The notes under the pieces are model-generated. The model made no database searches and was not told the origin of the DNA. It saw only the letters and a program-made list of their open reading frames with translations. Position numbers and translations under genes: made by a program. Source: a bacterium (GTDB lineage Bacteria > Bacillota > Clostridia > Lachnospirales > Lachnospiraceae). From it: a stretch of 32,312 bases of DNA. The stretch's first letter is position 1. Each line of letters opens with the position of its first letter. The stretch covers positions 1 through 32,312 of the forward strand of contig JAQYCU010000065.1 in NCBI GenBank assembly GCA_028724545.1, given 5' to 3'. Positions 8,795-26,718 of this stretch are shown piece after piece.

Positions 8795-8882
8795 TGTAGT
8801 AAGTATAACTATATAAATTGGTGTATTGGAACGGATTCCATTACCATTTATGATAACAATTCCAGGGAAAGGAGAGGTAGTT

Positions 8883-10160
8883 ATGAATACTAGCGTGTAT
8901 AATAATCTGTTGACGACAATAGATTTAAAACCGGTCACAAAACAAGTACATGATGCCAGGGAACTGCGTTCCGTAACAAAACGTATCCGTAAACAAACAC
9001 AGTCCTCTCCGGTTTATCTTGTGGATTTTACGAACGAAAAGCAGTCTTTTGTACTGGGCATTAAAGAGGCTGCGATGAAAATGAATGATTCGCTGCAGGT
9101 ACTTGCAGATGATTCGCGGGATGCTTTATTTCAAAAGAAAAAAGCACATTCTTCCGATGTTGAGCAGGTAGGAGTGGAACTGACAGACCCTGATAAGGAG
9201 CATTTGCCGTCTGCATTTACGATTCGTACGAAGCAGTTGGCAAATACACAGATTAATCAGGGAAAAGAGTTTTATGAAACGGGAAAAGGTCTGTCGGCAG
9301 GTACATACCAGTTTAAGATTACGGTCAATGACGTGGGATATGATTTCCAATATAATATAAGAAAAGATGCAAACCACCGGGAAGTAATTCAGGGTTTATC
9401 GAATTTCATTACGAAAGCCAAAATAGGCATCGTGGCAGAGCCATATGCCCATGAAGATGGCAAAATCGGGATGCGACTGGAATCTACATCCGTAGGAACT
9501 CCGGACGGCAGGGAAAGTTTTCGTTTAGAAGACAAAACAACAGACAGTTCCGGCAGGGGCATTGTAGAGTATTATGGTTTGAACAATATTGCCGTGGCAC
9601 CGAAGAATGCCATATTCGATTTAAATGGTGTAGAGAAAACTTCTATGGCAAATGAATTTACGCTGGGAAGAGCCGTCAGGGTATCCCTTCGCAAACCTTC
9701 GGAAACGGAGGCCGTTATCGATTATCATGCAGACAGTGAAGTGATACTGGGTGGAATCAAAGCATTTATTTCTGATTATAATGAACTGGTTGGCAAAGAG
9801 ATTTCTTTTGAGCGTAAGACAGAAGTTTCTACAGGACTGCAGAAAGAATTGCAGAATATGATTGGCCCGGCAAGAAACCAGCTGGAGGCGTGTGGTATTA
9901 CATTTGATAAAGATGGCTATATGCAGTTAGATACAGCACTTGCTTCGGAAGCGATTGAATCCGGGGAAATGAAGGAACTTTTTGGAAAAGATTCGGCATT
10001 GACAAATCGCATTTTTGCAAAGACAGAAGCGATTAAAATCAACCCGATGGAATATATTGATAAGAAGATTGTCAGTTATCCGAATTTTCAGAAACCACCA
10101 CGGGGATATTCCTATATTACATCCCTCTATAGTGGATTGTTGTTTAACTATTATTGTTAA
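8883..10160 (+). CDS. FliD-like flagellar cap-related protein
   Basis: The protein has about 425 residues and resembles FliD, the filament cap and hook-associated protein 2. A middle domain (LSAGTYQFKITVNDVGYDF) and the C-terminal pattern GGIKAFISDYNELV followed by LEACGITFDKDGYMQLD are typical of FliD. The usual long N-terminal coiled-coil region is replaced by a short, different segment. ATG 8883 is chosen because AAAGGAGAGG precedes it; a TTG at 8826 is in frame without such a site. The C-terminus (YSGLLFNYYC) keeps the FliD-like ending. No other flagellar genes are near. It could be a minor cap variant or an adapted surface protein. Confidence 0.65.
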   Translation: MNTSVYNNLLTTIDLKPVTKQVHDARELRSVTKRIRKQTQSSPVYLVDFTNEKQSFVLGIKEAAMKMNDSLQVLADDSRDALFQKKKAHSSDVEQVGVELTDPDKEHLPSAFTIRTKQLANTQINQGKEFYETGKGLSAGTYQFKITVNDVGYDFQYNIRKDANHREVIQGLSNFITKAKIGIVAEPYAHEDGKIGMRLESTSVGTPDGRESFRLEDKTTDSSGRGIVEYYGLNNIAVAPKNAIFDLNGVEKTSMANEFTLGRAVRVSLRKPSETEAVIDYHADSEVILGGIKAFISDYNELVGKEISFERKTEVSTGLQKELQNMIGPARNQLEACGITFDKDGYMQLDTALASEAIESGEMKELFGKDSALTNRIFAKTEAIKINPMEYIDKKIVSYPNFQKPPRGYSYITSLYSGLLFNYYC

Positions 10161-11393: not shown

Positions 11394-11915
11394 ATGGCAG
11401 ATACGGAAGCACATTGGTATGTTGCTCATACCTACTCAGGGTATGAGAATAAGGTAAAGATGGATATTGAAAAAACAATTGAAAACCGTAATCTTCAGGA
11501 CCAGATTTTTGAAGTATCTGTTCCTATGTTGAATGTTGTTGAAGAGAAAAATGATACGCAGAAGACGGTTCAGAAGAAGATGTTTCCAGCGTATGTTCTC
11601 ATCAATATGATTATGAACGACGATACATGGTATGTTGTTCGTAATACCAGAGGTGTTACGGGATTCGTTGGACCGGGGTCAAAGCCGGTACCACTTACTG
11701 ATGAAGAAATGGCAAGCATGGGCTTAAAAGTCGATGCACCGAATGTTCCATTCAACATTGGCGATTCTGTTGTTGTAAAATCTGGTGTTTGGGAAGATAC
11801 TACTGGTATTGTCCGTAAGATTGACCATCAGAACCGAATGGTTACGATTAATATTGATATGTTTGGCCGTGAAACACCGGTTGAAATCAGTTTCAATGAT
11901 GTTGAGGTGGTTTAG
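11394..11915 (+). CDS. nusG: Transcription termination/antitermination factor NusG
   Basis: The protein has 173 residues, the normal length. The NGN domain begins with WYVAHTYSGYENKVK and includes MFPAYVLINMIMNDDTWYVVRNTRGVTGFVG. The KOW domain is at the end (FNIGDSVVVKSGVWEDTTGIV). NusG binds RNA polymerase and affects elongation, pausing and coupling to translation. It sits in the conserved secE-nusG-rplK order. Confidence 0.98.
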   Translation: MADTEAHWYVAHTYSGYENKVKMDIEKTIENRNLQDQIFEVSVPMLNVVEEKNDTQKTVQKKMFPAYVLINMIMNDDTWYVVRNTRGVTGFVGPGSKPVPLTDEEMASMGLKVDAPNVPFNIGDSVVVKSGVWEDTTGIVRKIDHQNRMVTINIDMFGRETPVEISFNDVEVV

Positions 11916-12045
11916 AACGTTCTGAAAAAATTTTATATTCCAATTATTTTATTTGGAAGGGAAGAGAAAGGAAAATCCTTTTGATTCCTGCATAGTTAAG
12001 AAATTACGCAGTAGCCTGCGTGAATTTTACAGGAGGTAAGTTGAA

Positions 12046-12471
12046 ATGGCTAAGAAAGTCGAAGGATATATTAAATTACAGATTCCTGCTGCAAAGGCAA
12101 CACCAGCACCACCTGTTGGTCCAGCTCTTGGTCAGCACGGAGTTAACATTGTACAGTTTACAAAGGAGTTTAATGCTAAGACAGCAGGACAGGAAGGTAT
12201 GTTAATTCCTGTAGTTATCACTGTATATCAGGATAAGAGTTTTAGTTTTATTACAAAGACTCCACCAGCAGCAGTTCTTATTAAGAAGGCATGTAACATT
12301 CAGTCTGGTTCAGGTGTTCCTAACAAGACTAAAGTTGCTACTATTACAAAGGCACAGATTCAGGAAATCGCTGAAACAAAAATGCCTGACTTAAATGCTG
12401 CTTCACTGGAAGCTGCTATGAGCATGATTGCTGGTACAGCACGCAGTATGGGAGTTACCGTAGAGGAATAA
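12046..12471 (+). CDS. rplK: 50S ribosomal protein L11
   Basis: The protein has 141 residues. The N-terminal domain carries the signature [20 protein letters not shown] followed by [12 protein letters not shown]. The C-terminal rRNA-binding domain ends with [15 protein letters not shown]11 forms the GTPase-associated centre with 23S rRNA. ACAGGAGG precedes the start. The 130 bases before it contain a small hairpin (CGCA/TGCG, near 12006-12022) just upstream of the ribosome binding site. Confidence 0.98.
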
Positions 12472-12542
12472 AATATTTCACAATGCAACACGCATTTGTA
12501 ACATGACGCATAAATAAAAAGATTGTTATAGATTTGAACGTT

Positions 12543-12590
12543 GTGGGAGGCGACACGTCAGAGTGTCTTAGTACCCGCCGTTACTACCAC
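12543..12590 (+). promoter_or_regulatory. Ribosomal protein L1 autoregulatory site
   Basis: The mRNA between rplK and rplA begins with GTGGGAGGC and ends with TACTACCAC. It can pair GTGG (12543-12546) with CCAC (12587-12590), GGCG (12549-12552) with CGCC (12576-12579), and ACAC with GTGT inside. The L1-binding region of 23S rRNA has the same GUGGGAGGC...AUACCAC arrangement, so L1 can bind its own mRNA when in excess. The element ends only a few bases before the rplA AGGAGG box, well placed to block rplA translation. Confidence 0.75.
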
Positions 12591-12606
12591 TAGGAGGTTA
12601 TATATT

Positions 12607-13299
12607 ATGAAAAGAGGAAAGAAGTATACAGAGGCTGCAAAGTTAATCGACAGAACAATGCAGTATGAAGTAGAAGAAGCTGTTAGCTTAGTAAAGAAAG
12701 CATCTACAGCGAAATTTGATGAAACAGTAGAAGCACACATCAGACTTGGCGTAGACGGACGTCATGCTGACCAGCAGATTCGTGGTGCCGTTGTATTACC
12801 TAACGGAACAGGTAAGCAGGTTAGAGTTCTTGTATTTGCAAAGGGCGAAAAAGTAGACGAAGCTTTAGCAGCTGGAGCAGATTATGCAGGTGGCGAGGAG
12901 TTAATTCCTAAGATTCAGAACGAAGGATGGTTAGACTTCGATGTTGTTGTTGCCACTCCTGATATGATGGGTGTTGTTGGTCGTCTTGGTCGTGTTCTTG
13001 GACCAAAGGGCTTAATGCCAAACCCAAAAGCAGGTACTGTTACTATGGACGTAACAAAAGCTGTAAACGATATCAAAGCAGGTAAGATTGAGTACAGACT
13101 TGACAAGGCAAATATCGTTCACGTACCAGTTGGAAAAGTTTCTTTCACAGATGAGCAGTTAGTTGAAAACATTGAAACATTAATGGCTGCTATCACAAAG
13201 GCTAAACCAGCTGCAGCAAAAGGTCAGTACTACAGAAGTGTATCTATTTCTAGTACAATGGGACCTGGTGTAAAAGTCAGCACAGCAAAGTATGCATAG
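12607..13299 (+). CDS. rplA: 50S ribosomal protein L1
   Basis: The protein has 230 residues, the family norm. Recognisable blocks are [37 protein letters not shown] and [21 protein letters not shown]1 builds the mobile stalk that handles E-site tRNA and represses its own mRNA. ATG 12607 follows TAGGAGG; a longer frame from 12541 would read through the regulatory hairpin and is rejected. rplJ and rplL usually come next but are absent here. Confidence 0.98.
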
Positions 13300-13644: not shown

Positions 13645-13673
13645 TTGACAGAAAATTTTCATGGTGCTAAGAT
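13645..13673 (+). promoter_or_regulatory. Strong promoter of the transporter-oxidase operon
   Basis: A perfect TTGACA (13645-13650) is 17 bases from TAAGAT (13668-13673), which has an extended -10 TGC before it. The start of transcription should be near 13680. The 230 bases between the ribosomal terminator and this promoter are very AT-rich and show no gene. Confidence 0.85.
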
Positions 13674-13865: not shown

Positions 13866-14942
13866 ATGAAATTTAAGAAGATTTTGGCAGTAATGATGAC
13901 AGCAGTAATGGCAATAGGGTGTCTTGGTGGATGTGGTTCATCCAAAAAAAATTCCGGAAAGGTAGACAGCATCAACATTCTCGTATGGGAAGGTACCTGG
14001 TCAGAAGAAGCTTTTCAGGATTTTGAAGATGAAACAGGAATTAAGGTTAATGTAAGTTACATTGATAATACAGATACGATTCTTTCAAAACTGGTAGAGG
14101 GAAGCGCAGATTATGATGTAATCGATTTGGAAACAGCTTATGTTAAGTCTTTTATCGACAATGACTTATTAGCAAAACTGGACAGTTCCGAACTGGACAA
14201 CAAGAAAAACATTATCGACAATTTCCCAAGTCCGATTGGTGATGACAAAATGGAATATGTTTGTCCGGATTTGGCACCTGGTTATACCGGTATTGTTTAT
14301 AACAAAGAAACCTGTCCGATTGAGATTACAAAGTTTGAAGACCTTGCAGACCCGAAATTAAAAGGTCAGGTAGCAATGATTAACTCGACAATTTCTCTTT
14401 ATGGTATGGCATTGCAGGCACTTGGCTATAAGGCAGATTCCAAGGATGAAAAGGAAATCGAGGAAGCAAATGAATTGCTCAAGAAGATTAAGAAAAATGT
14501 AAAAGCATTTGTTGGCGAGAGTGCCGTATCGCAGTTGGAAAACGGCGAGTGCAGCGTGGCATTTTGCTGGGACTATATGCAGTTATGTATGGATAGCAAA
14601 GATAACTGGGACAAATTTGATATTGTAGATGTGGCAACCGGTTGTGAGCGTTTCACACAGTACTGGGCAGTTCCTAAGAGCTCTGAAAAGTTAGAAGCAG
14701 CAGAGAAGTTTATCAACTTTATGTTAAGACCGGAAGAAATGGCAAAATGTTATACAGAAAACGGTGGTATTCCACTGCTGAAGCAGGAAGTTATTGAAAA
14801 ACTTCTTCCGGAAGGTTATTATGACAACCCGGCAATCGAGAAGTATAAAACACTGGATAAAAATGCATGGTGCGTAGCTGTTAATGATGAACAGATTAGT
14901 CTGATGGATACCTATTACACAGAGCTGATGGGTAATGAATAA
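13866..14942 (+). CDS. potD: Polyamine-type ABC substrate-binding lipoprotein
   Basis: The protein has 358 residues. A signal peptide ends in the lipobox LGGC (residues 18-21), so it is a membrane-anchored lipoprotein. The mature part is a PotD/PotF-like type II binding protein: INILVWEGTWSEEAFQDFE at the start, YDVIDLETAYV and FINFMLRPEEMAKCYTENGG later. The family binds putrescine, spermidine and other cationic or amine compounds. ATG 13866 follows an AGGAGGA box. It is first in the operon and is followed by a partial terminator, so it is probably made in excess over the other subunits. The true ligand may be the amine degraded by the downstream enzymes. Confidence 0.88.
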   Translation: MKFKKILAVMMTAVMAIGCLGGCGSSKKNSGKVDSINILVWEGTWSEEAFQDFEDETGIKVNVSYIDNTDTILSKLVEGSADYDVIDLETAYVKSFIDNDLLAKLDSSELDNKKNIIDNFPSPIGDDKMEYVCPDLAPGYTGIVYNKETCPIEITKFEDLADPKLKGQVAMINSTISLYGMALQALGYKADSKDEKEIEEANELLKKIKKNVKAFVGESAVSQLENGECSVAFCWDYMQLCMDSKDNWDKFDIVDVATGCERFTQYWAVPKSSEKLEAAEKFINFMLRPEEMAKCYTENGGIPLLKQEVIEKLLPEGYYDNPAIEKYKTLDKNAWCVAVNDEQISLMDTYYTELMGNE

Positions 14943-14975
14943 CTGATGGGTTATGAATCATAAGTAAAGAATATG

Positions 14976-15025
14976 AAAAGGCAGTCAAAGATGACGAACA
15001 GGAAACATACTTTGGCTGTCTTTTT
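14976..15025 (+). terminator. Intra-operon terminator after the binding protein gene
   Basis: AAAAGGCAGTCAAAG (14976-14990) pairs with CTTTGGCTGTCTTTT (from 15010), with wobbles, over a 19-base loop and into T-rich sequence. It probably lowers transcription of the following genes relative to the binding protein. Confidence 0.65.
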
Positions 15026-15068
15026 CTATTTTATAAAAAGGGAACAAAAAAGATTGGAGGATATTAAT

Positions 15069-15410
15069 ATGAAAAAAATCGAAGTTATTACAAGACCTGA
15101 AAAGTTAGTTGGTTTAAAGGAAGTGCTGGCAAATCATAATTGCCAGGGTATGACAGTCAATTCCGTTATGGGTTGTGGACGTCAGAAAGGTTATTTGCCT
15201 GAAATGAATTTCACAGGCGAAGATATCAACTTGCTGCCTAAGATTTCTGCCTTTGTTGTTGTAGATGATGAGCAGACAGAAGAGATTCTGGCAGATATTG
15301 CAACAGCAATCGGAACCGGAAAAAACGGTGATGGTAAAGTATTCGTTACCGATGTCGTCGAAGTTATGCGTATCCGTACGAATGAACGTGGTTCGGACGC
15401 GATTAACTAG
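15069..15410 (+). CDS. PII signal protein of an ABC transporter operon
   Basis: The protein has 113 residues and aligns along its length with GlnB/GlnK. The nucleotide-binding residues are kept: GRQKG at 37-41, Lys58, GDGK at 87-90, Arg101 and Arg103 in RIRTNERG. The T-loop is unusual: residues 42-57 read YLPEMNFTGEDINLLP, with Glu at position 51 instead of the uridylylated Tyr. PII trimers sense ATP/ADP and 2-oxoglutarate and bind transporters or enzymes. A Firmicutes subfamily in polyamine transporter operons, called PotN in work I recall, fits this context. The start ATG 15069 has a GGAGG box. It is placed between the binding protein and ATPase genes, so the transporter is the likely partner. 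Confidence 0.9.
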   Translation: MKKIEVITRPEKLVGLKEVLANHNCQGMTVNSVMGCGRQKGYLPEMNFTGEDINLLPKISAFVVVDDEQTEEILADIATAIGTGKNGDGKVFVTDVVEVMRIRTNERGSDAIN

Positions 15411-15448
15411 ATGATACGGGCAGATTATTAAAGCAAGGAGATATGCAT

Positions 15449-16585
15449 ATGAGTAAAACAATTGTATCATTAATGAATGTTGAAAAATGGTATGGTGAAA
15501 ACCATGTTGTTAAAAATATGAACATCAACATAGCAGAGGGAGAATTTCTTACTCTGTTAGGACCATCTGGCTGTGGCAAGACAACAACGCTCCGAATGAT
15601 ATCCGGTTTTGAACTTCCTTCAACAGGAATGATAAAAGTACAGGGAGAGAGTGTAGAAAAGAAAGAGCCATACCAGCGTGATGTCAATACCGTATTCCAG
15701 AATTACGCATTGTTTTCCAATATGAATGTGTATGACAATGTGGCATACGGATTAAAAGTGAAAAAAGTCCCAAAGGCCGAGATTAAGGAACGGGTAACCG
15801 AAATGCTGAAATTAGTGCAGCTGGAGGGATTTGGAAAGCGTAAGATTACGCAGATGTCCGGTGGACAGAAACAGCGTGTGGCAATTGCCAGAGCGTTGAT
15901 TAACCGGCCAAAAGTGCTTTTGCTGGATGAACCGTTAGGAGCACTTGATTTGAAACTCCGTAAGCAGATGCAGATTGAGTTAAAGCGTCTGCAAAAGAAA
16001 CTTGGCATTACTTTCGTATATGTAACGCATGACCAGGAAGAAGCACTGACCATGAGCGACAGAATTGCCGTTATCAATGAAGGTGTGTTAGAGCAGGTTG
16101 ACACACCGATTAATATTTATCAGAAACCAAAGACAAAATTTGTGGCAGGTTTTATCGGGGAATCGAATATTATGGATGCCATTGTATTACAGAAAGAAAG
16201 TGGCAAAGCCGTTGTAGGTATGGAAGTAGGAAGAGGAACGGTAGCTGATGCTGATGACAAACTGGCAGTAAATGACCCGGTTGCCATATCCGTTCGTCCG
16301 GAAAATATGCTTTTTTCCAAGACTCCGGTTGAAGGTTTTAGTTTAAAGGGGATTGTAAAAGAACATATTTATGTCGGAAATATTGTTAAGATGATGATTA
16401 CGCTGAATGATGGTACAGAAATCCGTGTCAATCGTTTCCGTAGCGAAGATTTGGCAGCAGTCGGAACGTTATTGTATCTTTACTGGGATTTGGATAAGGG
16501 AGTTGTAATCAAAGAAAAATCCCTCGTAAATACGGATTCTGTTCGTGATATAGAAGGAGGGAATGCTGATGACGAAGACGAATGA
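15449..16585 (+). CDS. potA: ABC transporter ATPase, PotA type
   Basis: The protein has 378 residues. It contains Walker A GPSGCGKTT, Q-loop VFQNYALF, signature MSGGQKQR, Walker B LLLDEP, D-loop GALDLK and H-loop VTHD. A TOBE-like domain follows from about residue 290. This is the energy-coupling subunit of a polyamine/spermidine-type importer. ATG 15449 is preferred over 15443 because AAGGAG is then eight bases upstream rather than two. Its end overlaps potB. Confidence 0.93.
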   Translation: MSKTIVSLMNVEKWYGENHVVKNMNINIAEGEFLTLLGPSGCGKTTTLRMISGFELPSTGMIKVQGESVEKKEPYQRDVNTVFQNYALFSNMNVYDNVAYGLKVKKVPKAEIKERVTEMLKLVQLEGFGKRKITQMSGGQKQRVAIARALINRPKVLLLDEPLGALDLKLRKQMQIELKRLQKKLGITFVYVTHDQEEALTMSDRIAVINEGVLEQVDTPINIYQKPKTKFVAGFIGESNIMDAIVLQKESGKAVVGMEVGRGTVADADDKLAVNDPVAISVRPENMLFSKTPVEGFSLKGIVKEHIYVGNIVKMMITLNDGTEIRVNRFRSEDLAAVGTLLYLYWDLDKGVVIKEKSLVNTDSVRDIEGGNADDEDE

Positions 16586-17486
16586 TTTGGCAGTGAAAGT
16601 GGCGTCAAAGCCAAAGAAGCGTAAAGACAAACGTTCTTTCAAATCCTGGCTGGCTTCAGCTGTTATGTGTGGGCCTATTACCATCTGGTCAGTCCTGTTC
16701 ATCATTTTGCCGATTCTCCTTCTGGCATTTATGAGTTTTATGACAAAAGGACCGTTAGGGCGTGTCGTATATAAGTTTACATTAGACAATTACAAAGAAA
16801 TCTTTAAGCCGGTTTATTTTACGGTAATCAAGCAGTCCGTTATCATTGCCACATGGACAACGGTTCTGACAGTGCTGATGGGCTACCCGCTGGCTGCATT
16901 TATTGCAAATGTAAAGAAGAAGACTTCCGGGGTGCTGACCGTACTTCTGATGCTGCCTTTGTGGGTAAGTGGTCTTGTTATTCTTTACAGCTTTGTCATT
17001 ATGTTAAATAAGACCGGTGTGATTAACACAGTTTTGATGAACTTACATATTATCGATAAACCGTTGAATATGTTGTATAACAATTTTGCTGTTATCGTCG
17101 GTATGCTGTATATGTTTCTTCCGTTTGCTGTACTTCCGATGTACTCGTCCATTGAGAAGCTGGACAAAGGACTGATAGAAGCATCAAAAGATTTGGGAGC
17201 CGGACCGGTTAAGACATTTTTCAAAGTCACATTACCACTGACTGCGCCGGGAATCTTTGCAGCTGTTATTCTGACATTCATCCCGTGTATCGGTTACTAT
17301 ATGGTAACGGATATGTTAGGTGGTGGTACGAATATGATGGTAGGTAACCTGATTCACAGACAGTTTACAATATCGCGTAACTGGCCGTTCGGTGCAGCAC
17401 TTGCTATGGTGCTTGCTGTTGTTATCTTCATTATGCTATTTGTTTACACGAAACTCGGTGGCGATTTAGATGATTTGGGGGCATAG
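16569..17486 (+). CDS. potB: ABC transporter permease, PotB type
   Basis: The protein has 305 residues and about six membrane helices. The binding-protein-dependent transport signature (EAA loop) reads EASKDLGAGPVKTFFKVTLPLTAPG near residues 216-240 and contacts the ATPase. A charged Lys-rich N-terminus precedes the first helix. ATG 16569 has GGAGG at a normal distance; ATG 16563 would be too close. The gene overlaps the end of potA by 17 bases and precedes potC by three. Confidence 0.92.
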   Translation: MTKTNDLAVKVASKPKKRKDKRSFKSWLASAVMCGPITIWSVLFIILPILLLAFMSFMTKGPLGRVVYKFTLDNYKEIFKPVYFTVIKQSVIIATWTTVLTVLMGYPLAAFIANVKKKTSGVLTVLLMLPLWVSGLVILYSFVIMLNKTGVINTVLMNLHIIDKPLNMLYNNFAVIVGMLYMFLPFAVLPMYSSIEKLDKGLIEASKDLGAGPVKTFFKVTLPLTAPGIFAAVILTFIPCIGYYMVTDMLGGGTNMMVGNLIHRQFTISRNWPFGAALAMVLAVVIFIMLFVYTKLGGDLDDLGA

Positions 17487-17489
17487 CTT

Positions 17490-18317
17490 ATGGACAAGAG
17501 AACAGTTAAGAAAAAAGCCGTAAAAGGCATTTCAAGATTTTATGCAATCCTGTTATACATTTTCTTCTATGCACCTGTTGCAGTAATGATTGCCTTTTCT
17601 TTTAACGACAGTCGTGCAAATGTAGTATGGCAGGGATTTACCACAAAGTGGTATGTAAAACTTTTTCACGATACAGAACTCTGGATGGTATTCGGAAAAA
17701 CACTTCTGGTTGCCGTGCTGACAACGTTAATTGGCGTTGTAGTCGGAACTCTGGGTGCAGTCGGATTTATGAATGCAAAATTCAAGGGCAAAAAATTGAT
17801 TATGAACTCGATTTATTTCCCGATTGTTATTCCGGAAATTGTATTGGCAATTGCTACTTTGCTGGTATTTAACCAGGGTGGTATCTCGTTGAGTATGGGT
17901 ACTATCATTATTGGTAATACAACACTGGTATTGCCGTATGTGTACATCACGATTAAGGCAAGACTGGTCGGTATGGACCCTTCCATAGAAGAGGCTTCGC
18001 TGGATTTAGGTGCCAACCGTTTTTACACATTTATGCACGTAACGCTTCCGGGCATTATGCCGGGTGTTATGTCAGGTGCATTTATGGCATTCTCACTTGC
18101 TTTGGATGATTTGATTATTACAAGTTTCCTGGCAAATGCAGAAACGTCAACATTGCCAATGAAAGTTTACTCGATGATTAAGAAAGGCGTATCGCCGGAA
18201 ATCAATGCACTGACAACAATTATCTTTAGTTTCAGTGTGGTAGCCCTGATGATATATTTTATCAAAGAGTTTATCAATAATTTCCGGATTGCCAGAAGAA
18301 GGGCAAACAGTATGTAG
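17490..18317 (+). CDS. potC: ABC transporter permease, PotC type
   Basis: The protein has 275 residues and six predicted helices. Its EAA loop reads EEASLDLGANRFYTFMHVTLPGIMPG in the second half. Near the start it has YAPVAVMIAFSFNDSRANVVWQGFTTKWY, typical of PotC. It pairs with the PotB-like permease to form the channel of the importer. It starts three bases after potB and ends 23 bases before the cyclodeaminase-like gene. Confidence 0.92.
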   Translation: MDKRTVKKKAVKGISRFYAILLYIFFYAPVAVMIAFSFNDSRANVVWQGFTTKWYVKLFHDTELWMVFGKTLLVAVLTTLIGVVVGTLGAVGFMNAKFKGKKLIMNSIYFPIVIPEIVLAIATLLVFNQGGISLSMGTIIIGNTTLVLPYVYITIKARLVGMDPSIEEASLDLGANRFYTFMHVTLPGIMPGVMSGAFMAFSLALDDLIITSFLANAETSTLPMKVYSMIKKGVSPEINALTTIIFSFSVVALMIYFIKEFINNFRIARRRANSM

Positions 18318-18340
18318 GAAATTGTTAGGAGGCTTAAAAA

Positions 18341-19492
18341 ATGGAAGATACAAAAATCGAATTTTTATATTTGAGTGAAGAAGATATGATAGAAGCCGGT
18401 GTATTAGATGCAGGAAAATGCGTTGATACTATGGGCGAAGTTATGACACTCCTCAGTGAGGGAGATTGTATGATGGGAGGACGCAACCGGAACAACCACG
18501 GTATTCAGCTGATGTTCCCGAAAAAGTCCGATATCAAAGATTTCCCACTGGAGGATTCCAGGGACAGAAGATTTATGTCGATGCCGGCTTATCTGGGTGG
18601 AAGATTTCATCTGGCAGGAGAAAAATGGTACGGCTCGAATGGAAGAAATACGGCAAAAGGTCTTCCGCGTTCTATCCTGATGGTTACATTAAATGATATT
18701 GAAACAGGACAGCCGTTAGCATATATGTCAGCGAACCTGCTGAGTGCTATGCGTACCGGTGCGATGCCGGGACTGACAGCACAATATCTGGCAAGAAAAG
18801 ATTCTAAAGTGATTTCACTGATAGGACCGGGAGCTATTAATAAGACGTGTCTGATGGCATATATGGCAAAATTTGATTCGATTGAAACCATTAAAATCAA
18901 AGGAAGTTCTGCCAAGTCAAAAACAGCACTTGATATGAAGCAGTTTGTGGAGGAAACATATCCACAGGTCAAAAATGTCATTGTTTGTGATGATTTAGAG
19001 GAAGCCGTGAAAGATGCTGATATTATCAGTGAAGCAGTATCAGTAAAAGACCATCAGTGGCCGGTCTTTCAGCCGGAGTGGTTAAAACCGGGATGTGTAT
19101 TTATTTCTTCCGGAACAATGGATATGACGGACCATAATTTTATGAAGGACCATATGACAAAAGTAGTAGACAATATTCATATGTATGAGGAGTACATTGA
19201 AGTGTACGAGGAATATGATGCCGATGGAAACAGAAAGTCTTCCGGCACACCGGGAATGTATTTTGTCAATATGATAGAGGATGGTCTGATTGATAAGAAA
19301 GAAGTATATCATTTAGGCGACATTGTGCGTGGCACGGCACCGGGCAGAACGAGTGACGACCAGATGTTTTTAGTCAGTCTGGGAGGTATGCCGATTCTGG
19401 ACATTGGCTGGGGCTATGAGTGCTGGCAGAATGCATTAAAGAAAGGAATTGGCACGAAGTTAAAACTTTGGGACAAGCCATACCTTGCCTGA
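18341..19492 (+). CDS. Ornithine cyclodeaminase/mu-crystallin family enzyme
   Basis: The protein has 383 residues, longer than the usual 320-350. The family signature is clear: HLAGEKWYGSN with Lys95, LSAMRTGAMPGLTAQYLA around residues 134-151, and the NAD-binding loop LIGPGAINK at 160-168. Members convert ornithine to proline, reduce ketimines or split N-substituted amino acids oxidatively (SbnB). Some database entries for this long clostridial subfamily are named tyramine oxidase subunit B, as I recall; I cannot confirm that. AGGAGG precedes ATG 18341. It lies between the transporter and the flavoenzyme genes, so it probably acts on the imported amine or its oxidation product. Confidence 0.78.
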   Translation: MEDTKIEFLYLSEEDMIEAGVLDAGKCVDTMGEVMTLLSEGDCMMGGRNRNNHGIQLMFPKKSDIKDFPLEDSRDRRFMSMPAYLGGRFHLAGEKWYGSNGRNTAKGLPRSILMVTLNDIETGQPLAYMSANLLSAMRTGAMPGLTAQYLARKDSKVISLIGPGAINKTCLMAYMAKFDSIETIKIKGSSAKSKTALDMKQFVEETYPQVKNVIVCDDLEEAVKDADIISEAVSVKDHQWPVFQPEWLKPGCVFISSGTMDMTDHNFMKDHMTKVVDNIHMYEEYIEVYEEYDADGNRKSSGTPGMYFVNMIEDGLIDKKEVYHLGDIVRGTAPGRTSDDQMFLVSLGGMPILDIGWGYECWQNALKKGIGTKLKLWDKPYLA

Positions 19493-19517
19493 CAAACAAA
19501 GAAAAAGCAGGATTAGC

Positions 19518-19594
19518 AACGAAGGTGCATTCACAATATGGTGACGCAGCAAAGCAGTAACGAAGCGCATTTATGATATGGTGAAGCAGTAAAG
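19518..19594 (+). repeat. Two imperfect direct repeats of about 37 bases
   Basis: Copy one begins AACGAAGGTGCATTCACAAT (19518), copy two AACGAAGCGCATTTATGATA (19559). Both then read ATATGGTGA-GCAG-AAAG with small changes; the period is about 41 bases. The second copy ends at the ribosome binding site of the next gene. Confidence 0.7.
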
Positions 19595-19605
19595 GGAGGA
19601 ATTTG

Positions 19606-19917
19606 ATGGACAGAATAAAGGAACATCCGATTTTAGGTGAAACACCGGAAAAAAAGGTGGTTACATTTACCTATGACGGAAAGGAAATGCAGGGACTGGA
19701 GGGAGAGCCAATCGCAGCGGCACTAAAGGCAGCAGGCGTTATGGTACATCGTTATACAAAGAAAAAACACGAGCCGCGAGGTATCTTCTGTGCAATCGGA
19801 AGATGTACAGACTGTGTAATGATTGTCGATGGAAAACCCAATATCCGGACATGCATTACACCATTAAAAGAAGGCATGACAGTTCAGACACAGTATGGCG
19901 TTACGGCGCAGAAATGA
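19606..19917 (+). CDS. Small [2Fe-2S] subunit of amine/amino-acid dehydrogenase
   Basis: The protein has 103 residues. It is a Fer2_4-type domain: a beta-grasp start (KVVTFTYDGKEMQGLEGEPIAA) and the cluster cysteines in FCAIGRCTDC followed by ITPLKEGM-preceding Cys (IRTC). It resembles the small subunits of sarcosine oxidase, opine oxidase and hydrogen cyanide synthase systems and of archaeal proline dehydrogenase complexes. GGGAGG precedes ATG 19606; the TTG three bases upstream is ignored. It is coupled to the next gene, whose ATG is seven bases after its stop. Confidence 0.85.
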   Translation: MDRIKEHPILGETPEKKVVTFTYDGKEMQGLEGEPIAAALKAAGVMVHRYTKKKHEPRGIFCAIGRCTDCVMIVDGKPNIRTCITPLKEGMTVQTQYGVTAQK

Positions 19918-19924
19918 GGAAAAT

Positions 19925-21508
19925 ATGGATATCAAACGTTATGATGTGATTGTAATCGGTGCAGGTCCGGCAGGACTATCAGCAGCGATAGAGGCTTCAA
20001 AGGCAGGTATGAATGTGATTGTATTTGATGAAAATGCCAAGCCGGGAGGCCAGTTATTTAAACAGATACATAAATTTTTTGGCTCGAAAGAGCACAAGGC
20101 AAAGGTCAGGGGATTTAAAATTGGTGAGGAACTTCTGGCAGAGGCAGATAAATTAGGCGTAACCGTAGTTTTAAATGCTACTGTTATCGGTCTGTATGCA
20201 GAGAAAGAAGTGACTGTCCGGATTGATGATGCCATTTGCCACTACAAAGGCGATGCCATCATCGTGGCTACCGGAGCAGCAGAAAATATGGTTACGTTCC
20301 GTGGCTGGACAAAGCCGGGTGTTATTGGCGCAGGTGCAGCACAGACAATGATGAATCTTCATCAGATTAAGCCGGGCAACAGAATTTTAATGCTGGGTTC
20401 CGGTAATGTCGGTCTGGTTGTCAGTTACCAGCTGATGCAGGCCGGATGTGAAGTGGTAGCACTGGTAGATGCAGCACCAAAGATTGGTGGATACGGTGTC
20501 CACGCAGCAAAGGTGGCAAGGACGGGCGTTCCATTTTATCTTTCCCATACCATTGTCGAAGCAGAGGGTGAGGAATATGTAGAAGGTGTTACGATAGCTG
20601 AAGTTGACAGTAGTTTTCAGTTTATTCCGGGCACAGAAAAACATTTTGATGTTGACACAATTTGTCTTGCCGTTGGTTTGTCGCCAATGTCGCAGCTGCT
20701 GAAAGCGTTAGGATGCGATATGGTGGAAGACCCGAAACGTGGCGGCTATGTACCAGAGTGTGACGAATATGGTGAAACGAGTATCCGGGGTGTTTTTGTT
20801 GCCGGTGATGTATCCGGTATCGAAGAAGCAAGTTCTGCTATGATTGAGGGACGAATCGCAGGTGTGGCAGCAGCGTATGAACTTGGTTTTATGGAAAAAG
20901 AAGAACTGGATGAAAAGATAGCGATTCACGAGCATGCGTTAGATACTTTGCGACAGGGAATGTTTACTCCAAAAAACAGGGGCAAAGTGTTGGAAAAGAC
21001 AGAAGAAGGCTGTCCTGTTTCTACCAATCTTTTGAAAAAAGGTTATCTGACGGATGAAGAAGTATTTGCTTATCCCGGTGTTACGAAACAGGCTGGTGTT
21101 CATCCGGTTATGGAATGTTCCCAGAATATTCCGTGTAATCCGTGTCAGGATGCCTGCCCGAAAGGCTGTATCAGCATTGGAGAGAATATTACATCCCTCC
21201 CGGTTGTTGTTGAAACAGCAGAGTGTATCGGCTGTGGAATGTGTGTTGCATCATGTTCCGGACAGGCGATTTTCCTGGTAGATGAAAGTTATGAAGAGGA
21301 ATTTGCTACGGTAACACTTCCGTATGAATTTCTTCCACTTCCGAAAGCAGGTGACAAAGGCAAAGGATTATCCAGAAGTGGTGAGGTAATCTGTGATGCC
21401 GAAGTAGTAGATGTTAAGTCAGTCAAAGCCTTTGACCATACCAGTCTTTTGACAATAAAAGTACCAAAAGATATGGCAATGAAGGCAAGATTTTATAAGG
21501 AGGGGTAA
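19925..21508 (+). CDS. FAD/NAD oxidoreductase subunit with ferredoxin-like domain
   Basis: The protein has 527 residues. An N-terminal FAD site reads IGAGPAGLSAA (11-21), a second Rossmann NAD(P) site MLGSGNVGLV (156-164) and a closing FAD motif GVFVAGDVSG (289-298). Residues 398-444 hold nine cysteines: 398, 404, 407, 411, 415, then a textbook CxxCxxCxxxC at 434-444, enough for two [4Fe-4S] clusters. The first part equals the alpha subunit of opine oxidase or HcnB-like enzymes, and of dye-linked proline dehydrogenase. The cluster domain suggests electrons go to ferredoxin or another low-potential carrier instead of oxygen. GAGG overlaps the previous stop. Confidence 0.88.
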   Translation: MDIKRYDVIVIGAGPAGLSAAIEASKAGMNVIVFDENAKPGGQLFKQIHKFFGSKEHKAKVRGFKIGEELLAEADKLGVTVVLNATVIGLYAEKEVTVRIDDAICHYKGDAIIVATGAAENMVTFRGWTKPGVIGAGAAQTMMNLHQIKPGNRILMLGSGNVGLVVSYQLMQAGCEVVALVDAAPKIGGYGVHAAKVARTGVPFYLSHTIVEAEGEEYVEGVTIAEVDSSFQFIPGTEKHFDVDTICLAVGLSPMSQLLKALGCDMVEDPKRGGYVPECDEYGETSIRGVFVAGDVSGIEEASSAMIEGRIAGVAAAYELGFMEKEELDEKIAIHEHALDTLRQGMFTPKNRGKVLEKTEEGCPVSTNLLKKGYLTDEEVFAYPGVTKQAGVHPVMECSQNIPCNPCQDACPKGCISIGENITSLPVVVETAECIGCGMCVASCSGQAIFLVDESYEEEFATVTLPYEFLPLPKAGDKGKGLSRSGEVICDAEVVDVKSVKAFDHTSLLTIKVPKDMAMKARFYKEG

Positions 21509-21510
21509 GG

Positions 21511-21837
21511 ATGAATATATTAAGCGACCGTAGTAAGGATTTAGGACCTTTTGTACCACAGCCGGATGATGATATTTTGATTTGCCGTTGTGAAGAGGTA
21601 ACAAAAGGGGAAATCAGAGAGGCAGTGCATGCCGGAATGTTTACGATTGAAGAAATTCGTCGTTATCTGCGTTGTGGCATGGGACTTTGTCAGGGGCAGA
21701 CTTGTGGCAAACTGGTCAAAGGTATTGTGGCACGCGAACTTGGTGTTGCCAATACTGATTTGGAGCCTGCTACATCCCGTGCTCCGATGCGCCCGACAGA
21801 AATGAGAGTATTAGGAAATGATGGAGGTAATGAATGA
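21511..21837 (+). CDS. BFD-like [2Fe-2S] subunit
   Basis: The protein has 108 residues. The four cysteines of a BFD/NirB-type [2Fe-2S] site are in ICRCEEVTKGEI and LRCGMGLCQGQTCGKL (C-x-C ... C-x4-C-x4-C spacing including the first of three). In opine oxidases this segment is fused to the alpha subunit; here it is a separate gene, as in some multi-subunit amine dehydrogenases. AGGAGGGG lies directly before ATG 21511, only three bases after the previous stop. It overlaps the start of the next gene, so the three subunits are translationally coupled. Confidence 0.85.
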   Translation: MNILSDRSKDLGPFVPQPDDDILICRCEEVTKGEIREAVHAGMFTIEEIRRYLRCGMGLCQGQTCGKLVKGIVARELGVANTDLEPATSRAPMRPTEMRVLGNDGGNE

Positions 21838-22967
21838 TGAAACAGACAGCAGATGTAATCGTAATTGGCGGTGGAATAGTTGGCTGTGCAGCAGCTTATT
21901 ATCTCGCAAAAAAGAAAACAGATGTCATTGTTTTGGAAGCAAGTGACAGCATTGGCCACGGTGGTTCTTCCCGAAATGGTGGAGGTGTACGTCAGTCAGG
22001 ACGTGACCCACGCGAACTGCCATATGCGATGTATGGAATTGAGCACTTATGGCCAACCCTTTCCGAGGAACTGGGAATGGACGTAGAGTATTGTCAGGGA
22101 GGAAATCTTCGTCTGGCATTGAATGATGAGCATATTGAAATATTAAAGGCGCGTACGGCAGATGCAACGGCACTGGGACTGGACGTGACGATGGTGGATG
22201 CCAAAGAGGTAAAAGAAATCTGTCCTCATTTGAGTGATAAAATCGTGGCAGCAAGCTGGTGCCCTACCGACGGACATGCCAACCCGATGCTGACGACACT
22301 GGCATATTACCGTCGGGCGAGAGAAATGGGAGTTACTTTTATCACGGGAGAACCGGTTGTGGAACTTCGCAAGATAAAAGGAAAAATCCGTCAGGTTGTT
22401 TCTAAAGACGGTACGATTTATGAAGCAGAAAATGTTATTGTGGCAGCAGGTTATGAAGGACGTGAGATTGCCAGAACAGTTGGCATCGATATTCCGATGA
22501 CACGTTTCTTTGAAGAATGTGTCGTAACGGAAATGCAGCCGAAGATGTTTGATATTATGCTTGGTGTTGCAACGGCTGAGGTCTATGGACATCAGTGTGC
22601 ACATGGTTCCTTTGTATTTGGCAGTGGCACGGGTATGGAGAGTGCCAATGACAGAATCGGAGCGTTGCAGACCAGCGCGCTGGGAACACCGGCAAACTGC
22701 CGTGCCATTATGAAATATGTGCCGGCACTGGGCGATGCCAAGATTGTCAGAAGCTGGGGTGGCTGGATGGATATTACCCATGACAAGGTACCGGTTATCA
22801 GTACGGTAGATGAGGTGCCGGGTCTGATTCTGGCCATTGGCTTTTCGGGACATGGATTTGGAACCGGTCCAGTTGTCGGGCTGATGCTGTCCCAGATGGT
22901 TCTGGGAGAAAAAACAGCGTGTGACTTATCGGCACTTCGCTATAACCGGTTTAAAAGTAAGGTTTAA
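21834..22967 (+). CDS. DAO-type FAD amine/amino-acid dehydrogenase, catalytic subunit
   Basis: The protein has 377 residues of the DAO fold. The FAD site is VIVIGGGIVGCAAAYYLA at the N-terminus; SSRNGGGVRQSGRDPRELPYA follows with the usual Arg/Gly pattern. The closing motif is ILAIGFSGHGFGTGPVVG at residues about 334-350. It resembles OoxB, sarcosine oxidase beta and glycine oxidase and oxidises a C-N bond of an amine or secondary amino acid. Two ATG codons (21834, 21837) are possible; GGAGG is upstream. It is the last gene before a terminator. Confidence 0.87.
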   Translation: MMKQTADVIVIGGGIVGCAAAYYLAKKKTDVIVLEASDSIGHGGSSRNGGGVRQSGRDPRELPYAMYGIEHLWPTLSEELGMDVEYCQGGNLRLALNDEHIEILKARTADATALGLDVTMVDAKEVKEICPHLSDKIVAASWCPTDGHANPMLTTLAYYRRAREMGVTFITGEPVVELRKIKGKIRQVVSKDGTIYEAENVIVAAGYEGREIARTVGIDIPMTRFFEECVVTEMQPKMFDIMLGVATAEVYGHQCAHGSFVFGSGTGMESANDRIGALQTSALGTPANCRAIMKYVPALGDAKIVRSWGGWMDITHDKVPVISTVDEVPGLILAIGFSGHGFGTGPVVGLMLSQMVLGEKTACDLSALRYNRFKSKV

Positions 22968-22995: not shown

Positions 22996-23038
22996 CGCGA
23001 AACGTGCTTTGTAAAGAAGTGTGTTTCGCGGATTTTTC
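22996..23038 (+). terminator. Terminator ending the dehydrogenase operon
   Basis: CGCGAAAC (22996-23003) pairs with GTTTCGCG (23023-23030). Inside it GTGCTT pairs with AAGTGT using wobbles. A T-rich tail follows. Confidence 0.82.
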
Positions 23039-23060: not shown

Positions 23061-23133
23061 TAAGGCGATTTCGCCGGATGGGAAAGACGAATACCAAGAC
23101 GGATACCGTAAGGCAGTTTTACCAGATGGGAAT
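23061..23133 (+). repeat. Two imperfect direct repeats before the MFS gene
   Basis: Copy one TAAGGCGATTTCGCCGGATG (23061) and copy two TAAGGCAGTTTTACCAGATG (23109) both continue GGAA. The period is 48 bases. Each copy can form a tiny hairpin (GGCGATTTCGCC in the first). They precede the ribosome binding site of the next gene. Confidence 0.65.
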
Positions 23134-23146
23134 TTTGGAGGTGCGT

Positions 23147-24421
23147 ATGGAAAATTATAAAAAAAGAACAATGAAATATTGCGCTTTGCAGGGGACATAC
23201 TGGATGCTGGCAGCAGTTGGTCTGGCATTTGTAACGCCACTTCTTGAAGCAAAAGGCTTTAACAGTATGGAAATTGGCTGGTTAAATGCAGTAAAATATA
23301 TTTCTGTTATTTTTTTTCAGGTATGGATTGCAGCATTTTCAGACCGGCACGCAAAAACTTTCCCGCTGAAATGGATTATGCAGATTATGGGCGTGACAGG
23401 GATTATATCAGCAGTTGCTTTCTGGTTTTTGGATAATAATTTTGCTGAGGCAGTTATTATTTTTATTTTATATGGAGCTGTTGTAAATTGTCTGTCGCCT
23501 ATTGTAGATTCATTGTCCGTGCAGTATATGAATCACGGGCAGGATTTGCACTATACGCTGTCACGCGCCTGTGGCTCCGGCACATGGGCAGTTGCCTGCG
23601 TTGTAATCGGCAGTTTTTCTGATTGTTTTGGCATCAACAATATTTTGATATTGCAGATTGTGTCTACCATTGCATTTCTGGCTGTTACTGTTATTATGGA
23701 GCCGGTGGATTTTTCAAAAGACGAGAAGGTAGAAAAGGCAACCACGCAGGACACAAATGTAAAGAGGATAGAATCGCAGGAAGAAACCCCACAGGAAATA
23801 CGTTCGGAGGTGGAAAAGGCAGAAGTTCATTCGTCGTGGTATTTAATACGGAATTATCCGAAGTATACTCTTTTTCTGGCCGGCTGTATGATTATTTTTA
23901 TGGGATATAATCTGAATGCGACATTTATGATTGATGTTGTTGAGGGGCTGGGTGGCAGCCATACTGATTTTGGATTGGCAGAATTTGTGCTGGCAGCTGC
24001 CGAAATGCCGGTTGCTATCTTTTTTTCAAGAATGAGAAAGAAGTTTTCGATAGACCAGATGATGGTCATTTGTGCTATTTTCTGTACGTTGCGTGCAGCA
24101 GCGACAACATTTGCACCGACGGTTTTGCTTGTTATCCTGTCACAGGGATTTGAAATTCTGGGACTCGGCATCTTTTATGCAGGCAGCGTTTATTTTGTTA
24201 TGGAAAACCTGCCGGAAACAGATGTGGTAAAAGGCGTATCTTTTATCAATGTAGCATCTGTCGGAGTGGGGCAGGCGATAGCATCTGTCTGCTGTGGTAT
24301 GATTAAGTCAGCAGTCGGACTGCATAATTTGCTCATCATCAGTTCGCTGGTGTCATTTCTGGCCGTACTGGTTATGCTGCTTATGAAAATTGCACCCAAA
24401 AAGGGCAGACAAATTGCGTAA
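23147..24421 (+). CDS. MFS transporter (LacY/MFS_1-like)
   Basis: The protein has 424 residues and twelve predicted helices in two halves. A highly charged Glu/Lys-rich loop around residues 195-240 joins them. The pattern IGWLNAVKYISVIFFQVWIAAFSDRH is typical of the LacY/phenylpropionate-type MFS branch. GGAGG precedes ATG 23147; an upstream in-frame ATG would read through the repeats. A terminator separates it from the oxidase genes, so it has its own transcript or read-through. It may import or export a related compound, but the substrate is unknown. Confidence 0.83.
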   Translation: MENYKKRTMKYCALQGTYWMLAAVGLAFVTPLLEAKGFNSMEIGWLNAVKYISVIFFQVWIAAFSDRHAKTFPLKWIMQIMGVTGIISAVAFWFLDNNFAEAVIIFILYGAVVNCLSPIVDSLSVQYMNHGQDLHYTLSRACGSGTWAVACVVIGSFSDCFGINNILILQIVSTIAFLAVTVIMEPVDFSKDEKVEKATTQDTNVKRIESQEETPQEIRSEVEKAEVHSSWYLIRNYPKYTLFLAGCMIIFMGYNLNATFMIDVVEGLGGSHTDFGLAEFVLAAAEMPVAIFFSRMRKKFSIDQMMVICAIFCTLRAAATTFAPTVLLVILSQGFEILGLGIFYAGSVYFVMENLPETDVVKGVSFINVASVGVGQAIASVCCGMIKSAVGLHNLLIISSLVSFLAVLVMLLMKIAPKKGRQIA

Positions 24422-24432
24422 TGATGAAAAAA

Positions 24433-25044
24433 TTATGCTTTTATGTTAATGGAAGAAGCAGTCATAATATTTTCGGCTTCTGTCAGGCCGGGCAGGCTGA
24501 CAGTTGCCGTGGTCTGTTTCTTTGAAGTGCCTGTCTGAAGCATGGTTTTGGCAATGTGTGAAATGCTGGAAGCATATTTCCGAATGTTGGAAGTAAAACT
24601 TCCTGAAGAAGAAAACACTTTGCTGACTTTGGAAGGACTTGCAGAAAGCAAGGTTTTTTCGTCAAGCTTCAGTCCACCGGAAGCAGATGCCTTGATGCCG
24701 ATTTCTTCTAGTTCATCTGCATATTCTTTAACCAGTTTCTTTAAGTTTTTCTGGACACGCTCCAGCTTGCCGGAATTGGAGTCGCTGGTGCTTTCTATTA
24801 AATTATTATAGGATTCTACAAAAGCTTTCACATTGTTATATACATTTACGCCATTTTCGGCACTGTAATCCAGGTCTTTTAAATTTCTGGCAATTTTTTT
24901 CAAAGCATTGGAATCAGCGCTGATTAATTCTTCTTTGCTAAAAGTAGTACGATAAACTGCTTTGCGCGCATTGCGGTTTGAAGAATAACAGTTGCGTAAT
25001 AAATAATCATAATTGCTAATGGTTGTATTTGTAATTGCTGACAT
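24433..25044 (-). CDS. Short FliD-like protein
   Basis: The protein has 203 residues and no signal peptide. It contains a FliD C-terminal-like arrangement: NVYNNVKAFVESYNNLIES, then LEEIGIKASASGGLKLDE and ALLSASPSK-like SPSKVSKVFSSSGSF. This matches the helical D1 part of the flagellar cap but without the domains D2-D3. A GGAGGG site precedes the ATG on the minus strand, and a sigma-D-like promoter lies further upstream. It converges with the MFS gene, whose stop is 11 bases away, and no clear terminator lies between. A motility-linked role is inferred. Confidence 0.7.
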   Translation of the reverse strand: MSAITNTTISNYDYLLRNCYSSNRNARKAVYRTTFSKEELISADSNALKKIARNLKDLDYSAENGVNVYNNVKAFVESYNNLIESTSDSNSGKLERVQKNLKKLVKEYADELEEIGIKASASGGLKLDEKTLLSASPSKVSKVFSSSGSFTSNIRKYASSISHIAKTMLQTGTSKKQTTATVSLPGLTEAENIMTASSINIKA

Positions 25045-26613: not shown

Positions 26614-26718
26614 ATAAAAATAACAAAAGAAAAATAAACGGGAAATAAAACCGGTATGAAAAAGGAAGTGTAAGCCTGCAGATAAAAATGTCAGGGCTAA
26701 ATGGAAGGAGTGGTTTTT

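Follow-up and report, generated by a model that had tools for sequence, protein, structure and literature searches.

Several nutrient importers are paired with a PII-family protein. In the GlnK-AmtB, PII-NrtABCD, PII-UrtABCDE and SbtB-SbtA pairs the cargo is ammonium, nitrate, urea or bicarbonate. PII-controlled transporters named in a 2023 review include AmtB, Amt1, NrtABCD, UrtABCDE and SbtA, and a word search of that text returned none of the terms polyamine, amino acid permease and amino acid transporter (PMC10710835). Related systems on the enzymatic side are the heterotetrameric dye-linked L-proline dehydrogenase of Thermococcus and Pyrococcus and the flavin opine dehydrogenases OdhABC, Oox and Nox, which have DAO, FAD and [2Fe-2S] subunits and a BFD-type cluster in common. 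Here, we describe a ten-gene operon from a member of the Lachnospiraceae, located on contig JAQYCU010000065.1 (assembly GCA_028724545.1; 32,312 nucleotides). This contig, analysed over its full length and referred to below as the window, is one of 75 in a genome of 2.27 Mb. As in the known pairs, the operon couples a PII-family protein to an importer but, unlike in those pairs, the cargo would be an amine-type compound. The part that appears to be new is this PII-importer pairing; the architecture of the accompanying dehydrogenase is already known.

The ten genes lie on the + strand between 13866 and 22967, with intergenic gaps of -23 to 126 bases:

13866..14942, + strand: solute-binding protein (SBP), a PotD relative with a remodelled ligand pocket (SBP_bac_8, 1e-29; pocket comparison; AlphaFold model, mean pLDDT 84.5)
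15069..15410, + strand: nitrogen-sensor protein PII of the GlnB/GlnK family, which retains the residues for ATP and 2-oxoglutarate but has a divergent T-loop (PF00543, 2.5e-24; residues; tree)
15449..16585, + strand: PotA-like ABC transporter ATPase (TIGR01187, 389.8 bits, cut-off 355.6)
16563..17486, + strand: PotB-like permease (BPD_transp_1; below the equivalog cut-off)
17490..18317, + strand: PotC-like permease (BPD_transp_1; below the equivalog cut-off)
18341..19492, + strand: protein of the ornithine cyclodeaminase (OCD)/mu-crystallin fold, 'tyramine oxidase subunit B' subfamily, PRK06199 (NF004848, 469.8 bits, cut-off 362; tree)
19606..19917, + strand: [2Fe-2S] subunit, gamma-like, with motif C-x4-C-x2-C-x12-C (Fer2_4, 1.2e-31)
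19925..21508, + strand: FAD/NAD(P) subunit, alpha-like, with two C-terminal 4Fe-4S motifs (Pyr_redox_2, 7.1e-39; motifs); this start is favoured over 19895, the profile match beginning at 19925
21511..21837, + strand: BFD-type [2Fe-2S] subunit (Fer2_BFD, 7.1e-13; SO_alpha_A3)
21834..22967, + strand: DAO-family catalytic subunit, beta-like, with GxGxxG and R-x-W motifs (DAO, 5.6e-69)

A previous sequence-only reading of this stretch had described a polyamine-type importer, an OCD-family enzyme and a four-gene dehydrogenase, all in one direction with short gaps. Family scans recovered every gene it named, at the place and on the strand given, but its count of nine has to be raised to ten, the PII gene having been overlooked. 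PII is the most informative gene of the operon. We interpret the operon as a nitrogen-scavenging unit which imports an amine-type compound and strips its amine nitrogen, with PII gating the importer. We assign this reading a probability of about 0.55; the substrate, the directions of the redox steps and the gating are what we infer in it.

Whether the genes stay together in related genomes had been set beforehand as the test of the association, and they do. We compared 90 loci holding the FAD subunit (the best 80 of at least 519 relatives, nine further stretches and the window; L034 and L084, which are the same place, are both in the set), counting at most 12 genes to either side and including loci cut by contig ends. 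Genes were labelled by BLAST against clusters whose representatives were scanned with family libraries, except for the LysR label, given by eye. The OCD-only loci L032, L042 and L043 are excluded from these counts and L044-L050, with OCD proteins of 27-32% identity, were not carried on. The DAO subunit is present in 87 loci, the Fer2 and BFD subunits in 84 each, OCD in 78, PII in 46, an APC permease and an AraC-type regulator in 43 each, an iron-containing alcohol dehydrogenase-like protein (FeADH) in 32, RidA in 28, an SBP in 27 and PotB in 26; OCD and DAO occur together in 77. Since the set recurs across these loci, it is more than a chance association. Its core, the OCD-family protein with the four-part dehydrogenase, was found mostly in Clostridia, and hosts among the best 80 relatives include Anaerostipes, Roseburia, Pseudobutyrivibrio, Acetobacterium, Clostridium and Acidaminococcus. 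Of the 25 loci whose importer genes are all of the Pot type, 22 carry two OCD genes and 21 carry FeADH; of the 42 with an APC permease only, 39 carry a single OCD gene and 24 carry RidA. A search of 391 Clostridia genomes gave OCD matches at E <= 0.001 in 66, mostly remote, and matches of at least 43% identity in 11. In nine of these 11 the dehydrogenase complex lies beside an OCD gene (for the own genome, in the window), G080 and G289 being without it. In the own genome, the FAD-subunit profile finds a single match at E <= 1e-30, and a second OCD gene adjoins an FeADH gene on contig C20 (G000:C20). No earlier account of this gene set was found in the open-licence literature, a scope outside which most subscription journals lie.

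In the window, the PII gene sits between those of the binding protein and the importer ATPase. Of the 46 PII-containing loci, 44 have an importer gene as the next gene (26 APC permease, 18 PotA; same strand), at a median distance of 15 bases. As to the other two, the APC permease of L036 is split into two frames and calling of open reading frames (ORFs) placed two opposite-strand ORFs between it and PII, and L130 has a PII of another branch which does not adjoin an importer. Among 47 control PII loci outside the module, 40 have PII beside or fused to AmtB, seven are PII-PII pairs and none has PII beside an APC permease or PotA. This control, of best matches only, comprises 21 of 23 loci of a first set (two weak matches dropped, some loci overlapping, and seven of 37 matches without a locus) and 26 of a second. 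A PII search of 391 genomes returned, among the matches listed, the query (G329), then the module PIIs of G184, G263 and G349, then AmtB fusions and, lower down, the PII of G048 described below; the sole other PII match of the own genome is likewise fused to AmtB. No paper on a pairing of PII with PotABC or APC importers was found in the open-licence literature.

The window protein matches the P-II family and carries the residues with roles in binding ATP and 2-oxoglutarate. Of these, G87, D88, G89, K90, R101, R103 and K58 are kept in all 46 module PIIs and Q39 in 39, with Glu in the remaining seven. Tyr51, the site of uridylylation, which is not universal in PIIs, is Tyr in 3/46, and the window has Glu at the aligned place. 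The T-loop differs by importer type, with an insertion of 4-7 residues in 15 of the 18 Pot-linked PIIs, one extra residue in L033 and none in the window and L128. Cys36 of the G-C-G signature was considered as specific to operon PIIs and rejected, as it is also found in the four AmtB-fused PIIs compared. In a tree of 69 rows and only 116 columns, the 18 Pot-linked PIIs are a supported group (95/80) which a branch (98/81) sets apart, PIIs from amtB loci being its neighbours, and the APC-linked PIIs (26 and that of L036) form a separate group (100/99), with AmtB-fused PIIs among the nearest neighbours. Because the two kinds fall in separate groups, the tree suggests two separate recruitments of PII.

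The best support for direct contact between PII and a permease is the C-terminal tail of the APC permeases. The 26 PII-linked permeases of the module end in [DEKQ][VI][ML]AME-x3-Y, a motif absent from the remaining 1709 ORFs of the loci; all 26 share the A, M, E and Y, together with an F and a W closer to the last membrane span. When one PII-linked permease was used to search the class, a further PII-APC pair was identified outside the amine module, in genome G048, where its neighbours are urea carboxylase (1702 bits against a cut-off of 1304), allophanate hydrolase and UAAP1/2. Since the tail of this permease reads QVMMMESPEY, the motif was widened to [VI][ML]-x-M-E-x3-Y, which is found in 27/27 PII-linked APC permeases (26 together with L036, counted by its tail piece; the G048 pair is included) and in 0/17 PII-less ones (excluding L096 and L216, both cut short, and L217, at 26% identity); five remote or short APC loci were left out of this comparison and of the tree. 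The PII-linked permeases form one clade (96/100; 99 with the G048 permease added), and the G048 PII groups among the APC-linked PIIs. An analogous tail on PotA was also considered and rejected, PII-linked and PII-less PotAs showing no clear difference by eye.

It may be that PII was recruited at least twice as a valve on organic-nitrogen importers, PotABC and APC, that the APC tail is its dock, and that the PII-APC cassette moves between operons, those of amine oxidation and in one case that of urea or guanidine carboxylation; we give this proposal even odds. PII might instead be merely co-transcribed for general nitrogen sensing, without touching the importer. Adjacency alone can reflect shared regulation and many loci are without PII, but PII keeps its importer-adjacent position in both of its lineages and with importers that are unrelated, the T-loops differ by importer type and the permease tail tracks the presence of PII, so that co-transcription alone seems somewhat unlikely.

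The nature of the imported compound was addressed through the SBPs. Residues of the PotD pocket have known roles in ligand binding, and we compared them in 27 SBPs of 300-460 amino acids: 19 PotD-like, four window-like, one intermediate (L033) and three unrelated (L052, L102, L117), the longer SBP of L113 falling outside the set. Eleven positions (W34, T35, E36, Y37, S83, Y85, D168, R170, W229, D257 and Y293) are kept in the 19 PotD-like proteins, which have E171 replaced by Ala and W255 by Phe. The SBP of the window, that of L128 and both of L082 have lost D168, E171, D257 and Y85 and gained acids elsewhere. The window SBP lacks the three acids, D168, E171 and D257, with which PotD holds polyamines and which would mark a putrescine/spermidine importer. 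Because of this remodelling, the ligand of window-type SBPs is probably another compound than putrescine, perhaps still a cationic one. The subtype is rare, with relatives at E <= 1e-60 in 4/397 family genomes including the own one; in L205 and L206, two of the other three, PII lies between the SBP and PotA, and the dehydrogenase is nearby, the third being L208 (see below).

Putrescine is a likely ligand in the PotD-like sister subtype, given the pocket kept in 19/27 SBPs and the presence of agmatine deiminase (AguA) and N-carbamoylputrescine amidase (AguB) in or after the module in 3/92 loci (L070, both above cut-off; L061 and L076, by similarity to L070). The same observations could be taken to place a putrescine/agmatine pathway in the window also, with import of a diamine, oxidation to 4-aminobutanal/1-pyrroline, reduction by FeADH and PII as a valve on polyamine uptake. 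Conversion of putrescine to the ring compound pyrrolidine by the OCD protein was considered as a further possibility. Such a pathway is likely for the sister subtype and less so for the window, where we regard it as quite improbable: the window SBP and its kin have lost four of the pocket residues and AguA was not found in the own genome.

The dehydrogenase appears from its sequence to be a variant of a known architecture. All motifs listed for heteromeric proline, opine and hydroxyproline dehydrogenases (the ProDH/OpnDH/D-HypDH superfamily; PMC4575208) are present: GxGxxG and R-x-W in beta, C-x4-C-x2-C-x11/12-C in gamma and GxGxxG in alpha. The likeness to archaeal L-proline dehydrogenase noticed earlier is supported by 1y56_B, the best solved match of the DAO profile. 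Unlike L-proline dehydrogenase, OdhABC, Oox and Nox, the operon has two 4Fe-4S motifs in the FAD subunit, BFD as a separate gene and usually a PRK06199 OCD companion (78/90 loci). In a DAO tree (30 of 85 rows) the module proteins cluster with one another and separately from OoxB, sarcosine oxidase, archaeal proline dehydrogenase and the oxidases of proteobacteria, although branches are long, the order among outgroups is unsure and OoxB, on a very long branch, is the sole opine row.

The resemblance to Agrobacterium opine operons, in kinds of gene, also held in comparison with the octopine operon of an Agrobacterium plasmid (L167: occM-occP-occT-ooxB-2Fe2S-ooxA-ridA-arginase-ocd), which shares an importer, DAO, 2Fe-2S and FAD/BFD proteins, RidA and an OCD-fold gene. 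It could be argued from this that an N-carboxyalkyl amino acid is imported and cleaved oxidatively by the DAO complex, the cyclodeaminase converting the released amino acid further, and among solved structures the OCD profile indeed matches best that of SbnB (4m54, 6.2e-54), which we take to cleave an opine-like secondary amine. The octopine operon, however, has another importer, the Occ system, in place of PotABCD or APC, no PII annotated, and an arginase step that is absent from the window's ten genes. Its Ocd, of another subfamily, is 27% identical to the window protein over 152 amino acids and placed apart in the tree, and the window DAO is 25% identical to OoxB, the only one compared, and does not group with it in a tree of long branches. 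Opine catabolism is thus possible but not favoured, and we hold it the least probable of the alternatives. Of the opine-like substrate proposed earlier, import and flavin/iron-sulfur oxidation of an amine-type compound is supported by the gene families, but 'opine' specifically is not.

The OCD protein scores well above the curated cut-off of NF004848, 'tyramine oxidase subunit B', a name which does not settle its substrate and which may derive from the tyramine cluster of Pseudomonas putida U, although the phrase itself was not found in the open-licence literature. A true ornithine cyclodeaminase was rejected on a score of 66 bits with NF005762 (cut-off 350) and on the lack of the catalytic Asp, found in 0/51 module rows. 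The same subfamily occurs on proteobacterial plasmids. Five loci were compared out of 516 hits, and in four (Martelella, Klebsiella, Aminobacter and Acinetobacter) it is accompanied by RidA together with a flavin oxidase, with an APC permease nearby in three; the gene on an Agrobacterium cucumeris plasmid is without RidA/flavin oxidase company. The proteobacterial operons of this name (L161-L164) have OCD proteins 44-48% identical to that of the window, RidA and a flavin oxidase (4/4), an APC permease nearby (3/4) and an AraC or other helix-turn-helix regulator. They differ in that the oxidase is a single gene product about 25% identical to the window DAO, without Fe-S subunits, and in that no PII is annotated.

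In the scheme we propose, the binding protein and PotABC would import a small cationic amine-type compound and the Fer2-FAD-BFD-DAO complex would oxidise its C-N bond to an imine, with flavins and iron-sulfur clusters relaying the electrons to NAD+ or to ferredoxin. With NAD(P) as cofactor, the OCD-fold protein would act on the imine or the amine, ammonia would be released, and the carbonyl product would probably be reduced by the FeADH whose gene adjoins the second OCD gene. The presence of RidA in 24/42 APC-only loci and of FeADH in 21/25 Pot-only loci fits a product that is an imine or an aldehyde. PII would sense nitrogen status through ATP/ADP and 2-oxoglutarate and, by analogy with GlnK and AmtB, may bind the importer and close it when nitrogen is plentiful.

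Several observations weigh against this interpretation. PII was not found in 44/90 loci, and for 22 of these the sequence covered includes an importer (it starts only at PotA for L070 and L082, and a 156-amino-acid opposite-strand ORF fills the position in L100), so that the module seems to work without it. L208, with an SBP 44% identical to that of the window, has Pot genes, but neither PII nor the dehydrogenase was found within 16 kb. As the PII-linked APC permeases are one clade, tail and PII were gained once, together, and four of the 17 PII-less permeases are remote relatives only. PotA has no comparable tail, and the PotAs of the PII-less loci L106, L108 and L115 resemble PII-linked ones; the docking evidence therefore does not extend to the window's own importer. 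Finally, Lys and Arg of the OCD-fold site, which we assume to hold a carboxylate as in relatives, are kept in 51/51 module OCD rows (51 of about 100 rows compared; only these two are claimed, the AlaDH R52 column being Met, Ile or Asn), whereas the presumed catalytic Asp (AlaDH D219 column), present in Agrobacterium Ocd, is kept in none, so that a carboxylate substrate is conceivable.

DauA and DauB are known to deracemise arginine, and the kept Lys and Arg would suit a similar role here, in which the DAO complex makes an imino acid from a D- or N-substituted amino acid, RidA frees the keto acid and OCD re-aminates it to the L form. RidA in the APC-only loci is consistent with this, and the DAO profile reaches D-arginine dehydrogenase structures, if weakly (6e-10). 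FeADH in the Pot-only loci nevertheless speaks for an aldehyde over a keto acid, the AguA/AguB genes point to putrescine and the AlaDH/OCD catalytic Asp is missing, and we judge deracemisation unlikely.

The operon is bounded by the following features:

13645..13673, + strand: promoter-like site TTGACA-17-TAAGAT, with TG ahead of the second hexamer (consensus match only)
22996..23030, + strand: terminator-like stem of 15 pairs (consensus scan), the probable end of the operon
23078..24421, + strand: MFS transporter downstream of the terminator-like site (MFS_1_like, 1e-24), with relatives in or beside related modules (L128, L082, L205)

Flanked by these two sites, the ten genes probably form one transcript; consensus scans of the stretch found 42 promoter-like and 20 terminator-like sites against 29 and 9 expected by chance. 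AGGAGG is located ahead of the SBP start at 13866. No RNA families or tRNAs were found in a scan of the window. The operon follows nusG-rplK-rplA (11394-13299) and stands in place of rplJ. The usual ribosomal gene order is rplKAJL; it is split in this genome, as the operon sits after rplA and the sole Ribosomal_L10 match is on another contig (G000:C66:15247-15531). Partial and weak FliD_C matches flank the operon on opposite strands (8826-10160, +; 24433-25044, -), and a BspA-type leucine-rich-repeat protein of 674 amino acids is encoded at 26701-28725. RnfC, RnfD-family and FMN-binding (RnfG-like) genes near the contig end (29018-31940) are possibly part of a ferredoxin:NAD+ complex near the ferredoxin-type dehydrogenase.

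Other loci show further variation. L222 (6562-18900; G090) has Fer2-FAD-BFD-DAO-Rid with a PII-less APC permease and a carbon-nitrogen-hydrolase-like gene, and OCD was not found within 19.9 kb. Window-like modules include Amidohydro_3-type enzymes (L033 12975-14621, L082 3881-5572 and L206 from 10203; assigned by Pfam in L082 and by similarity in the others), which may release amines from N-acyl forms. In Anaerostipes, a protein of 502-509 amino acids, membrane-like by eye, adjoins the module (L053 13176-14684, L056 13108-14616, L113 15628-17157); its L053 and L056 copies gave no family match in Pfam.

If our reading is correct, the operon represents a probable way for gut bacteria to obtain nitrogen from amines anaerobically, and the reaction of the 'tyramine oxidase subunit B' family gains a conserved gene context. 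The uptake of organic amines in a large group of Clostridia from gut and rumen would then be controlled by the kind of switch used for ammonium channels. Two further importer families would become PII targets, extending GlnK-AmtB control from ammonium to amines, and a short candidate docking peptide would be available for direct testing.

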